NCBI RefSeq assembly: GCF_004343505.1
Contig: NZ_SLXU01000001.1
Location: 558,001 to 622,000 of the forward strand
From: Rhodovulum bhavnagarense
Lineage (GTDB): Bacteria; Pseudomonadota; Alphaproteobacteria; Rhodobacterales; Rhodobacteraceae
Length of the DNA: 64,000 nt
Direction: 5' to 3'
Shown: positions 16,133-19,210 of the stretch, in pieces
Layout of the letters: every line of letters starts with the position of its first letter
Numbering within the stretch: position 1 is the stretch's first letter
Made by a program: the position numbers and the translations under genes
The notes under the pieces: generated by a model
Told to the model about the DNA's origin: nothing
The model's database searches: none
What the model saw: the letters and a program-made list of their open reading frames with translations, nothing else

Positions 16133-16708
16133 CTAAGGGGCGCCCGCGCTTCCGCGCGACAGGGCCGCGATACCGGTGCGTGCCATCTCGACCAGGCCAA
16201 GCGGGCGCATCAACTCGGCAAAGGCATCTACCTTCTGCGGCGTGCCGGTGATCTCGAAGACAAAACTCTCAAGCGTGGAATCGACCACATTGGCACGAAA
16301 GATATCGGCCAGGCGCAATGCTTCGACCCTTTTCTCGCCGCCGCCCGTCACCTTGAACAAGGCCAGTTCCCGCTCTACCGAGGGGCCCTCGACTGTCAGG
16401 TCATGCACCTCGTGCACCGGCACGATGCGCCCTAGCTGCGCCTTGATCTGCTCGATCACAGCGGGCGTGCCGGTCGTGACGATGGTGATGCGGCTGGTAT
16501 GGCCATGGTGATCCACCTCGGCCACCGTGAGGCTGTCGATATTGTAACCGCGGCCCGAGAACAGGCCGATCACGCGGGCCAGGACGCCCGCCTCGTTGTC
16601 GACGATCACCGCCAGCGTATGGCGCTCTATCGCCTCGGCATTGGGGTCGCGCAGGTCGTAGGCGGAGTGCTTCGACGTGCCCTTCTGGATGTTGAGTGCT
16701 GCTGCCAT
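16133..16708 (-). CDS. ilvN: Acetolactate synthase small (regulatory) subunit
   Basis: A 191-residue regulatory subunit that binds valine through an N-terminal ACT domain (about 29-105, with HTLAVIVDNEAGVLARVIGLFSGRGYNIDS). The C-terminal ALS_ss_C domain completes it. It stimulates IlvB and gives feedback inhibition. It follows ilvB with an 83-base gap; a copy of the 22-nt motif ends 4 bases before its ATG, so the purine-rich AAGAAGAAGAG end serves as the ribosome binding site. The 3' end is one base from the convergent PAP2 gene. Confidence 0.96.
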   Translation of the reverse strand: MAAALNIQKGTSKHSAYDLRDPNAEAIERHTLAVIVDNEAGVLARVIGLFSGRGYNIDSLTVAEVDHHGHTSRITIVTTGTPAVIEQIKAQLGRIVPVHEVHDLTVEGPSVERELALFKVTGGGEKRVEALRLADIFRANVVDSTLESFVFEITGTPQKVDAFAELMRPLGLVEMARTGIAALSRGSAGAP

Positions 16709-16791: not shown

Positions 16792-18546
16792 TTATACCAG
16801 CACCGCGCCGCCGGCCTTGATCGCGTCTTCTCCACTGTCTTCGCCCAGCAGCATCCGGTTATGCGGCTCGCCCGACGGGATCATCGGGTAACAGTTCTCG
16901 TGCTTTTCCACGAGGCAGTCAAAGATCACCGGCCCGTCATGGGCCAGCATCTCGGCGATCGCGTCGTCCAGGTCGGCCGGGTCCGCGCACTTGATGCCCT
17001 TCGCGCCAAAGGCCTCTGCCAGCTTGACGAAATCGGGCAGCGCCTCGGACCAGGAATGCGAATAGCGGTTGCCATGCAAGAGCGACTGCCATTGCCGCAC
17101 CATGCCGAGGCGTTCGTTGTTCAGGATGAACTGCTTGACCGGCAGGCGATACTGGATCGCGGTGCCCATCTCCTGCATGTTCATCAGCCACGAGCCTTCG
17201 CCGGCCACGTTGATGACCAGCGCGTCCGGGTGCGCGACCTGCACGCCGATCGAGGCCGGCAGTCCGTAGCCCATGGTGCCGAGGCCGCCCGAGGTCATCC
17301 AGCGGTTCGGCGCCTCGAAGCCGAGGAACTGCGCAGCCCACATCTGGTGCTGGCCGACCTCGGTGCAGATATAGCGGTCGGCACGGTGTTTGGTCAGAGC
17401 CTCCAGCCGCTCAAGCGCGTATTGGGGCTTGATGATCTTGTCGGACCCCTTGTAGCGCAGGCACTCGACCTTGCGCCATTCCTCGATCTGGGCCCACCAG
17501 CGCGCCAGGCCCTCCTTGTTGACCTTGCGCCCGCGCGATTTCCATATCCTCAGCGCGTCCTCAAGCACATGTGCCACGTCGCCGATTATGGGCATGTCCA
17601 CACGGATCGTCTTGTTGATCGACGAGGGGTCGATATCGATATGGGCCTTGCGCGAATTCGGGCTGAAATCGGCCACGCGCCCGGTGATCCGGTCGTCGAA
17701 GCGGGCGCCGATATTGATCATAAGGTCGCAATCGTGCATCGCGAGGTTGGCCTCGTAAAGCCCGTGCATTCCCAGCATGCCCAGCCAGTTCTTGCCGGAG
17801 GCGGGATAGGCGCCCAGCCCCATCAGGGTGGACGTGATCGGGAAACCGGTGGCGTCTACCATTTCACGCAAGAGCTGCGTTGCGGCATCGCCCGAGTTGA
17901 TGACGCCGCCGCCCGTGTAGAAAATCGGCCGCTCGGCGGTCTCGATCGCCTCGACCAGACGGGTGATCACCTCGCGGTCGCCCTTGACGCGGGGCTGGTA
18001 ATGGCCGGTGCGCGCGGCGCGCGGCTCGACATAGGTCCCGGTGGCGAATTGCACATCCTTGGGGATGTCGATCAGCACCGGCCCAGGGCGCCCCGTGGTG
18101 GCGACATGGAACGCCTGGTGGATCGTATCGGCCAGCTTGTCGGTTTCCTTCACCAGCCAGTTGTGTTTCGTGCAGGGGCGGGTGATACCGACCGTGTCGG
18201 CCTCTTGAAACGCGTCATTGCCCACCATGAATGTCGGGACCTGCCCGGTCAGCACGACCAGCGGAATGGAATCCATCAGCGCGTCGGTGATGCCGGTGAC
18301 GGCATTGGTGGCACCCGGCCCCGAGGTGACCAGCACGACGCCGGGCTTGCCGGTCGAGCGGGCATAGCCCTCGGCCATGTGGACCGCGCCCTGTTCATGG
18401 CGCACCAGGATGTGCTGGATCTCGCTTTGCATGAAAAGTTCGTCATAGATCGGAAGCACGGCGCCGCCCGGATAGCCGAAGATTACCTCGACGCCCTGGT
18501 CCCTGAGCGCCTGGACAACCATTTTCGCGCCGGTCATTTGTGTCAT
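16792..18546 (-). CDS. ilvB: Acetolactate synthase large (catalytic) subunit
   Basis: A 584-residue thiamine diphosphate enzyme making 2-acetolactate or 2-aceto-2-hydroxybutyrate for Val, Leu and Ile. The start at 18546 (MTQMTGAK) is chosen because GGAGACAGAG lies just upstream; the longer frame runs back through the attenuator. Signatures include the catalytic Glu in LVRHEQGAVHMAEGYARS, GRPGPVLIDIPKD, and the ThDP/Mg motif GEGSWLMNMQEM with NNERLGM. It is transcribed before ilvN under a leader-peptide attenuator. Confidence 0.97.
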   Translation of the reverse strand: MTQMTGAKMVVQALRDQGVEVIFGYPGGAVLPIYDELFMQSEIQHILVRHEQGAVHMAEGYARSTGKPGVVLVTSGPGATNAVTGITDALMDSIPLVVLTGQVPTFMVGNDAFQEADTVGITRPCTKHNWLVKETDKLADTIHQAFHVATTGRPGPVLIDIPKDVQFATGTYVEPRAARTGHYQPRVKGDREVITRLVEAIETAERPIFYTGGGVINSGDAATQLLREMVDATGFPITSTLMGLGAYPASGKNWLGMLGMHGLYEANLAMHDCDLMINIGARFDDRITGRVADFSPNSRKAHIDIDPSSINKTIRVDMPIIGDVAHVLEDALRIWKSRGRKVNKEGLARWWAQIEEWRKVECLRYKGSDKIIKPQYALERLEALTKHRADRYICTEVGQHQMWAAQFLGFEAPNRWMTSGGLGTMGYGLPASIGVQVAHPDALVINVAGEGSWLMNMQEMGTAIQYRLPVKQFILNNERLGMVRQWQSLLHGNRYSHSWSEALPDFVKLAEAFGAKGIKCADPADLDDAIAEMLAHDGPVIFDCLVEKHENCYPMIPSGEPHNRMLLGEDSGEDAIKAGGAVLV

Positions 18547-18578
18547 CTCTGTCTCCGTGCTCTGCGTCGGCCGGGCAT

Positions 18579-18605
18579 AAAAAAGCCCCCGGTTTGGGCG
18601 GGGGC
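18579..18605 (-). terminator. Transcription attenuator of ilvBN
   Basis: On the minus strand GCCCCCG (18605-18599) pairs perfectly with CGGGGGC (18591-18585) around a 7-base loop, followed by six T residues (18584-18579). It lies between the leader peptide and ilvB. An alternative 10-bp pairing of 18647-18638 (within the leader peptide frame) with 18612-18603 uses the first three bases of the terminator arm, so the two structures exclude each other. Confidence 0.88.
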
Positions 18606-18630
18606 GCATGGGGTGAGACCCAGGGTCGGT

Positions 18631-18678
18631 TTATCCGCCCATGCGCCTGTCTGTAATTACTACAAGGCTCCGTCCCAT
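18631..18678 (-). CDS. ilvBN leader peptide (15 residues)
   Basis: The frame reads MGRSLVVITDRRMGG and stops. It contains Leu-Val-Val-Ile in a row, the three end products of the pathway. AGGAG lies 10 bases before the ATG. The stop is 25 bases from the attenuator stem. This is the classical layout for attenuation: scarcity of charged Leu, Val or Ile tRNA stalls the ribosome at codons 5-8, leaving the downstream codons free to form the antiterminator. The peptide and stems are visible; the mechanism is inferred from known ilv leaders. Confidence 0.85.
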   Translation of the reverse strand: MGRSLVVITDRRMGG

Positions 18679-18709
18679 ATGCCCGGGGCTCCTATCTTGT
18701 CTGCGCGGC

Positions 18710-18744
18710 ACACTATGGGGGGTGTATCTTCCGGTCAACCGGAA
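18710..18744 (-). promoter_or_regulatory. Candidate ilvBN promoter and overlapping palindrome
   Basis: On the minus strand a -35 TTGACC (18738-18733) and a -10 TAGTGT (18715-18710) are 17 bases apart. They would start a leader transcript near 18703, about 25 bases before the leader peptide. The palindrome TTCCGGTCAACCGGAA (18729-18744) covers the -35 and is a likely operator. The bound protein is unknown. Confidence 0.55.
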
Positions 18745-19210
18745 ATGGATGAATAATGCTGTTCCAAGACAAAGATTCCTTTCCGTTTGTTGCGAAAAGC
18801 GGGGCTCTTGCGCATTTCTCGCAAAGAGGACTCGATTGTCTTTGCCTGTGTTGTCGTCCATGGGGCAGGGATGAGGTTCCCGCCCTGCGGCGAACTGGTC
18901 GGGGGACGATGATGCGGCTTGTGAGCGGCGGCAACTACAGTTTCTCAGCCAGTTCAGCGGTCCGGCGCCGCGGTCGCACGGTGTTGCCGGGCCGAATCAA
19001 GTTGACCTCTGCGCGAACGTCATGCCCGGCATGCGTGCGCGAGGCGGCAGGCATGCCGGGAATTTTGTCTGAATTGGTAAAGTCATCTTACAGATTTTTC
19101 CCCCGCAGGCGTTTCTGACTATTTATCTGCGTCGGACCAGAGGCTAGATTGCGCGCACCAAAAACGATCCGCCCGTCCTCGGGGCGGGCTCCAACCGGGA
19201 GGATTACTTA
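18745..19210. other. Intergenic stretch between ilvBN and the TRAP operon
   Basis: No convincing gene was found in these 466 bases. They contain a perfect 10-bp inverted repeat, CCCGGCATGC (19025-19034) with GCATGCCGGG (19051-19060), followed by AATTTTGTC. There is also a short symmetric GTAA-N7-TTAC (19077-19091), and CCGCCC/GGGCGG (19169-19174, 19182-19187) just before the TRAP binding-protein gene. It could hold the TRAP promoter and possibly a small RNA ending at 19065; neither is proven. Confidence 0.4.

Follow-up and report, generated by a model that had tools for sequence, protein, structure and literature searches.

Known attenuation systems for branched-chain amino acid synthesis

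The ilvBN operon of Caulobacter crescentus is under attenuation (Tarleton, Malakooti and Ely 1994, as cited in PMC4117421). As outlined in the latter source, on whose description alone our comparison relies, its leader carries tandem Ile and Val codons and is read through when tRNA charging is low; the locus studied here shares with it the class Alphaproteobacteria, the ilvBN genes, and a rho-independent terminator. PMC1273637 and PMC2573895 name Vitreschak et al. 2004 as the source of an ilvB leader peptide and an ilvIH element in alphaproteobacteria, and the likeness to our locus lies in the predicted leader peptide attenuation of alphaproteobacterial acetolactate synthase genes. In the leu and ilv attenuators of E. 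coli and Salmonella, as in our leader, the control codons correspond to the products of the pathway, and rare CUA codons are used in leu (PMC1183508). A uORF is also described as regulating ilvB(NC) in Corynebacterium (PMC10272879, PMC11109978); it resembles our leader by description only and differs in that all its representatives are given as Corynebacterium (PMC11109978). Within the Rhodobacterales, the uORFC-8-2 cysS motif is listed as an attenuation candidate with a uORF, a stem, and a terminator, but it has Cys codons, belongs to the cysS gene, and carries its control codons inside the first stem (PMC8632094).

Among the papers listed in a literature search, none described an ilvBN leader RNA in Rhodobacterales, which is weak evidence of absence given that subscription journals lay mostly outside its scope. 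The classical leu and ilv attenuators of E. coli and Salmonella are built on a series of 1:2, 2:3, and 3:4 helices, whereas in the ilvBN leader described here a single alternative helix is seen, which overlaps the terminator by 3 bases. The principle of ilvBN attenuation is known from Caulobacter and from the alphaproteobacterial prediction of 2004; the variant presented here is new.

Organization of the ilvBN leader

The window analyzed is a stretch of 64,000 nucleotides of Rhodovulum bhavnagarense contig NZ_SLXU01000001.1; all coordinates refer to the whole window, and the leader and the genes that follow it are read on the minus strand. The gene ilvB (16792 to 18546), encoding the large subunit of acetolactate synthase, scores 1123 bits with NF006581 and 776 bits with TIGR00118, both over the cut-off, and ilvN (16133 to 16708), encoding the small subunit, is over the cut-offs of NF008864 and TIGR00119 and is probably carried on the same transcript. 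Upstream of ilvB, a sigma-70-type promoter is predicted at 18710 to 18738, with TTGACC (18738 to 18733) and TAGTGT (18715 to 18710) separated by a 17-base spacer. An initial annotation of this DNA had described a 15-codon frame with a ribosome binding site and a Leu-Val-Val-Ile run, all of which are present in the minus-strand sequence. The ribosome binding site AGGAG (18689 to 18693) stands 10 bases 5′ of the start codon, and the frame (18631 to 18678), with ATG at 18678 to 18676 and TAA at 18633 to 18631, encodes the peptide MGRSLVVITDRRMGG. Its codons 5 to 8, the candidate control codons CTT GTA GTA ATT (18655 to 18666), specify Leu, Val, Val, and Ile.

Segment A (GGCGCATGGG, 18638 to 18647) runs from the last part of codon 11 through codon 14 and can form a 10-bp pairing with segment B (CCCATGCGCC, 18603 to 18612). 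Two smaller elements are found in the intervening sequence, namely, a hairpin with conserved pairing and the leader stop codon inside (CGG-ATAAA-CCG, 18627 to 18637) and a possible third small hairpin (ACC-CTG-GGT, 18618 to 18626). The perfect 7-bp GC stem with six T residues that had been noted just 5′ of ilvB was also recovered, as an intrinsic terminator with conserved pairing (GCCCCCG-cccaaac-CGGGGGC-TTTTTT, 18579 to 18605) whose arms at 18605 to 18599 and 18591 to 18585 enclose a 7-base loop and are followed by the T-run at 18584 to 18579. The ilvB start codon (ATG, 18546) lies 32 bases 3′ of this T-run. The competing 10-bp pairing that the initial annotation placed at codons 11 to 14 does exist and does overlap the terminator arm, but the overlap amounts to only 3 bases (18605 to 18603). 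The predicted fold of the leader (125 bases) has a z-score of −4.02, and none of 200 dinucleotide shuffles was equally stable. In the full-length fold of the window leader, the SD region AGGAGCCCC (18693 to 18685) pairs with GGGGCUUUU (18589 to 18581), i.e., with the terminator 3′ arm and the T-run.

Conservation of the leader in Rhodobacteraceae

For comparison, we collected the ilvB upstream regions of the best 80 of at least 595 candidate loci together with those of 30 further loci (L002 to L111), with the window's own locus included. A leader frame and a terminator were found in 109 of these 110 loci, L072 having too little upstream sequence, and 103 leaders were distinct. At least four Leu, Val, or Ile codons within six codons, followed by a terminator, occurred in 100 of the 103 distinct leaders, whereas the reverse strand of these regions gave 2 of 103. 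The frame is exactly 15 codons long in 95 distinct leaders, an SD-like 4-mer precedes it in 101, and the peptide ends in Met-Gly-Arg in 89, while positions 4 to 8 vary among Leu, Val, and Ile. Within 110 bases 5′ of the leader, 99 of the 103 have a sigma-70-like promoter, its spacer being 17 bases long in 91 of them, with a median distance of 29 bases from the end of the −10 box to the leader start codon; both controls, the reverse strand and the 110 bases before ilvB, gave 0. Among the matches listed, the three named relatives with the highest IlvB identity (91 to 93%) are Rhodovulum species.

A covariance model, R1, was derived from an alignment, A1, of 97 of the 103 sequences, leaving out six leaders with an aberrant segment A (L017, L018, L086, L100, L109, and L110). 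In the window's genome, the ilvB leader site was the top match of R1, and the next best had an E value of 3.7. When one Rhodobacteraceae genome was taken per genus, R1 matched 213 of the 248 at E 0.01, as counted per genome rather than placed singly; the weak matches in two genomes (G169 and G222) do precede ilvB. A draw at the order level gave matches in 113 of 121 genomes, all of them Rhodobacteraceae and partly the same genomes as in the 248-genome set. In a class-level draw, 15 of 187 genomes from outside the family were matched at E 0.01, three of them above 70 bits, and none of the listed matches outside Rhodobacteraceae was found at an ilvB gene of the same genome.

The ilvB genes of 30 family genomes that R1 missed or matched weakly were then fetched, and 29 upstream regions were usable (L319 was without a gene start). 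Twenty of the 29 contained a leader frame and a terminator, 16 of these with at least four Leu, Val, or Ile in six codons, and nine showed no leader with terminator in our scan. Among the nine, the upstream regions of L311, L316, L317, and L318, from genomes of about 1.9 to 2.6 Mb, are AT-rich and gave no ilvB leader in the scan. At L299 (G169), another of the nine, a Leu/Val-rich frame and a terminator are present, and inspection by eye found no ATG, GTG, or TTG at the expected place. One genome (G024) has two ilvB copies (L238 and L250), each with its own leader match.

In other alphaproteobacterial families, only 5 of 107 ilvB upstream regions, a few of them short, carried at least four Leu, Val, or Ile with a terminator. 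A looser frame test gave 15 of 105 regions versus 21 of 105 on the reverse strand, and four consecutive Leu, Val, or Ile codons with an SD were found in 3 of 105 versus 0 in the control. One region from another family (L140) has a leader that looks plausible by eye and was missed by the scan, its T-run being interrupted. In these scans, with their few or control-level matches, a general class-wide homologue at ilvB is not apparent, although single families may have leaders of their own.

Codon usage in the leader peptides

The synonymous codons of the leaders differ sharply from those of the genes that they precede. GTA makes up 55.4% of the Val codons in the 103 leaders compared to 3.4% in ilvB of the same loci, and CTA makes up 24.5% of the Leu codons compared to 1.4%. 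Conversely, CTG falls from 64.4% of the Leu codons in ilvB to 5.8% in the leaders and GTT from 11.6% of the Val codons to 3.0%. Because GTT is avoided, low G+C alone is insufficient to explain the bias. The window leader itself has two GTA codons and no CTA. It has been argued that CUA is the most suitable control codon for leu, and a CUA-to-CUG exchange in Salmonella lowered sensitivity (as cited in PMC1183508); the same source warns that "rare codon" by itself is an oversimplification.

Pairing and covariation of helix A:B and the terminator

The pairings seen in the window were examined across the 97 sequences of A1, whose pair counts lean to the canonical form. The terminator is paired in 99.3% of cells, with four of its seven pairs changed on both sides, and the stop codon hairpin, which in most relatives reads CCG-GTAA-CGG, in 93.5%, with two of three pairs changed on both sides. 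The third small hairpin varies in position among relatives and is paired in 55.7% of cells in a fixed register. Helix A:B is paired in 96.1% of cells, and double-sided changes affect 2 of its 10 pairs, each in a single sequence: a G-C to A-U exchange in L039 and a change of G-C to U-A. The observed pairing of A:B, the hairpins, and the terminator lies above nearly all shuffles; taken singly, 55 of the 97 canonical A:B helices reach p <0.01, short GC-rich segments being poorly suited to shuffling. Since segment A also belongs to the reading frame and hardly varies in sequence, covariation in A1 alone would count as moderate evidence for A:B.

The more diverged leaders and the six aberrant loci were tested separately from A1. 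For 25 leaders (19 of the 20 diverged ones plus the six aberrant ones, L297 being dropped for too short a segment), complementarity between the end of the frame and the region before the terminator exceeded that of dinucleotide shuffles with a combined p of 1.3e-6, and 8 of 25 helices fell below p 0.05 singly. Pairings such as GCGCAGTCGC:GCGACTGCGC (L290) and GCGCTTG:CAAGCGC (L300 and L304) exemplify the turnover. Given that these leaders beat dinucleotide shuffles, the A:B pairing is retained even as its sequence changes, and the diverged members are the stronger evidence for it. The comparison of Leu/Val/Ile codons and covarying stems across the group, proposed as a check in the initial annotation, was in sum strongly positive. 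The position of the helix relative to the terminator is less constant: 94 of the 97 canonical sequences retain the overlap of 2 to 3 bases, and the best helix ends 1 to 4 bases 5′ of the terminator, with no overlap, in 16 of 20 diverged leaders.

Proposed mechanism and folding predictions

We consider a ribosome-mediated transcription attenuator of ilvBN to be the best explanation, and we hold it with high confidence. A leader peptide attenuator controlling ilvBN is what the initial annotation had proposed, and family-wide conservation, codon bias, and covariation all support it. From the observed parts and promoter we infer ribosome stalling, read-through, and a response to amino acids as follows. 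Transcription would start about 20 to 25 bases 5′ of the leader frame, judging from the conserved promoter-like pair. As long as charged Leu-, Val-, and Ile-tRNA are plentiful, the ribosome would reach the leader stop codon and cover segment A (18647 to 18638), the terminator (18605 to 18579) would then form, and transcription would end before ilvB. With charged tRNA in short supply, the ribosome would stall at codons 5 to 8, most effectively at rare codons, leaving segment A free to pair with segment B (18612 to 18603) once B is transcribed; A:B would tie up the terminator arm's outermost three bases, and RNA polymerase would read through into ilvB. That A:B itself would block the terminator is the least certain step of this model because the overlap is 3 bases only and is missing in most of the diverged leaders examined. 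Kinetic competition between A:B and the terminator is plausible, since A:B can form before the terminator 3′ arm is made.

Folding was computed with the ribosome assumed to cover 12 bases past the first base of its A-site codon, and the free RNA 3′ of it was folded. In the window, a stall at the first control codon left the outer three terminator pairs with a probability of 0.28, compared to 0.99 for the last control codon and 1.00 for the stop codon; a ribosome stalled at Ile8, where the terminator probability is 0.99, would already cover part of segment A. Under equilibrium folding, a shift in pairing of more than 0.5 relative to the stop codon was predicted for 24 of 103 sequences with a stall at the first codon and for 4 of 103 with a stall at the last. 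With no ribosome, the probability of the outer terminator pairs is near 0 in the window and below 0.5 in 58 of 103 sequences; because the terminator is thus predicted to be open, an untranslated leader would read through. An untranslated trp leader of E. coli would terminate.

The equilibrium switch being weak across the family, the comparison was repeated as the energetic cost of losing the outer terminator pairs. For 96 canonical sequences, the median cost was 1.5 kcal/mol stalled versus 6.3 kcal/mol at the stop codon, and the difference exceeded 1 kcal/mol in 84 of the 96. For the window, a stall at the first control codon brought the cost to 0.0 kcal/mol, versus 5.9 kcal/mol at the stop codon, in line with the competition between helix and terminator that had been claimed. 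That part of the claim does not extend evenly over the family, as the pairing shift is confined to less than a quarter of the sequences, the diverged leaders mostly lack the overlap, and no energy switch above 1 kcal/mol was predicted in 18 of 20 diverged leaders (the exceptions being L297 and L307). A switch was predicted for two of the six aberrant leaders (L018 and L100). Attenuation is thus very likely, while the simple competition step is uncertain, since most diverged leaders show no switch and have a helix that stops 1 to 4 bases short of the terminator.

Related leaders at a Bcr/CflA-type transporter gene and the Rfam family Atu_C8

Several of the R1 matches precede a transporter gene. 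Three lie in three other alphaproteobacterial families (L223, 74.5 bits; L225, 71.9 bits; L226, 72.5 bits) and two in Rhodobacteraceae (L251, 70.5 bits; L252, 42.9 bits), and their leader peptides are MHILIVVVGERRLDR, MTVTTVVVGAWRLDR, MNPKSVVVVVSRRCMVR, MKLTTVVVANKRCMVR, and MSFLNVVVSVRCVVR. The transporters of L226, L251, and L252 were scanned, and all pass the TIGR00710 Bcr/CflA cut-off, two of them narrowly. We examined 25 transporter homologues, 23 of them from a search and two (L251 and L252) selected because of their leaders. A frame and a terminator were present in 7, all within the 10 with at least 48% identity to the query, L226; one of these seven leaders (L269) is Val-poor. Three more transporter leaders were found in Rhodobacteraceae, two in one genus (L320 and L321) and L322. 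At ten loci (L223, L225, L226, L251, L252, L269, L274, L320, L321, and L322), a leader and a terminator stand directly before a Bcr/CflA-type MFS gene; these leaders are mostly Val-rich, occur in several alphaproteobacterial families, and have a structure like that of the ilvB leader. A weak R1 match in G126 (L253 and L323) is not at a Bcr/CflA gene. The window's own genome had no such transporter match at E 1e-60. In the literature search, within the same limited scope, no attenuation was described at a Bcr/CflA gene. The trp leader peptide of S. meliloti, for which an action on a multidrug resistance operon has been reported (PMC7298713), is a different case.

At the gathering score, none of the other Rfam 15 families (4227 models) matched positions 18579 to 18744, and only a tRNA was found elsewhere in the window; at E values up to 10, positions 18400 to 18900 gave four weak matches (E 0.58 to 9), none of them real. 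Atu_C8 (RF02502), filed as "Rhizobiales sRNA," scores 13.9 bits on the window leader, below its gathering score of 50. On ilvB leaders, it reached 37.2 bits at L027, the best of seven loci tested, and 28.7 bits at L301; at E 0.1, it matched neither five of the seven ilvB loci nor any of the three transporter loci tested. Its likeness to the ilvB leader consists of a short Val/Ile/Leu frame, a segment A with GCGCATGGG and a segment B with CCCATGCGC, an inner hairpin around the stop codon, and a terminator. It differs in that its matches over the cut-off precede the Bcr/CflA transporter gene, not ilvB, and that its terminator is located several bases 3′ of B. Outside Rhodobacteraceae, a leader (MSLLIVPCAPNEGLA) and a terminator precede ilvB in G434 (L328, also L132), where Atu_C8 scores a subthreshold 32 bits.

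At E 0.01, Atu_C8 matched 9 of 190 genomes of the class sample, with one genome (G353) alone over the cut-off, at a site that R1 matches weakly (26.6 bits). In the family of that genome, Atu_C8 was over the cut-off in 6 of 36 genomes, G353 included, and in 2 of 12 genera. All six sites (L327 and L339 to L343) directly precede a homologue of the Bcr/CflA transporter gene, and a Val-containing leader frame was read in five of them. In the predicted fold of these five leaders, the leader end forms a helix with a downstream segment, an inner hairpin holds the stop codon, and the terminator follows at some distance; no switch is predicted. Atu_C8 is therefore probably the leader of an attenuated gene and not a free sRNA. 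More tentatively, the ilvBN leader could be one branch of an unrecognised alphaproteobacterial attenuator class with a junction around the leader stop codon, which would include Atu_C8 as a leader of Bcr/CflA transporters with a Val-rich peptide and would use a form of antitermination other than classical exclusive pairing. The latter is proposed because the ribosome-sensitive helix adjoins the terminator, often with no overlap; we regard this class as a conjecture that may well be wrong.

Alternative explanations

The alternative to be taken most seriously leaves attenuation in place but makes A:B a sensor or pause hairpin beside the terminator, with read-through brought about in some other way, such as by RNA polymerase pausing, by a terminator sterically hindered from forming, or by a different pairing, e.g., of the AGGAGCCCC region with the terminator 3′ arm. 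The 1:2 hairpin of the trp leader offers an analogue of such a sensor or pause hairpin. The gap of 1 to 4 bases in most diverged leaders, the helix several bases 5′ of the terminator at the Atu_C8 loci, the prediction that the terminator forms in most stalled states, and the pairing of AGGAGCCCC with GGGGCUUUU in the full-length window fold all fit this explanation. Against it, the terminator is cheaper to open in the stalled state than at the stop codon in most canonical sequences, nearly all of which have kept the short overlap. We judge it a real possibility, though on the doubtful side. That the leader encodes an arrest peptide or senses a drug, instead of responding to charged tRNA, would be in line with the related Val-Val-Val leaders before an efflux-type transporter of the Bcr/CflA family, but the varying Leu, Val, and Ile at positions 4 to 8 and the rare codons fit a dependence on decoding speed, not a fixed peptide motif, and the controlled gene makes Leu, Val, and Ile. 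We thus consider this very improbable.

A stand-alone small RNA that has a promoter and a terminator of its own and acts in trans, in which the short frame would be fortuitous, is equally improbable. The promoter and terminator would indeed give an RNA of roughly 120 bases, and the related family Atu_C8 is filed as an sRNA; opposed to this are the conservation of the frame in its length, start, and stop, of the SD, and of the Leu/Val/Ile run, the strong synonymous codon bias, and a structure placed around the leader stop codon. The only good model match in the window's genome also precedes ilvB, but the leader set was gathered at ilvB, so position before this gene is not independent evidence. 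The terminated RNA or the peptide may have a trans role in addition to attenuation. Resemblance in a single window would even permit a chance frame before the ordinary terminator of an upstream transcription unit, a notion refuted by conservation across the great majority of sampled genera with controls near zero, and to which we assign practically no weight. An attenuator of ilvBN that responds to charged tRNA is the explanation that we retain.

Significance

The tested ilvB leader loci match no Rfam 15 family at the cut-off, and an Rfam "sRNA" family, Atu_C8, can be re-read as a probable attenuator. The likeness of the ilvBN leader to Atu_C8 is unexpected, and a leader of the branched-chain amino acid type is connected with an efflux-type transporter. 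Diverged members that keep their structure offer a good system for asking by what means a ribosome-sensitive helix could block a terminator with which it barely overlaps. For the family itself, which is described as including abundant marine roseobacters (PMC8267831), the leader is a candidate regulator of branched-chain amino acid synthesis in most of the Rhodobacteraceae genera sampled.
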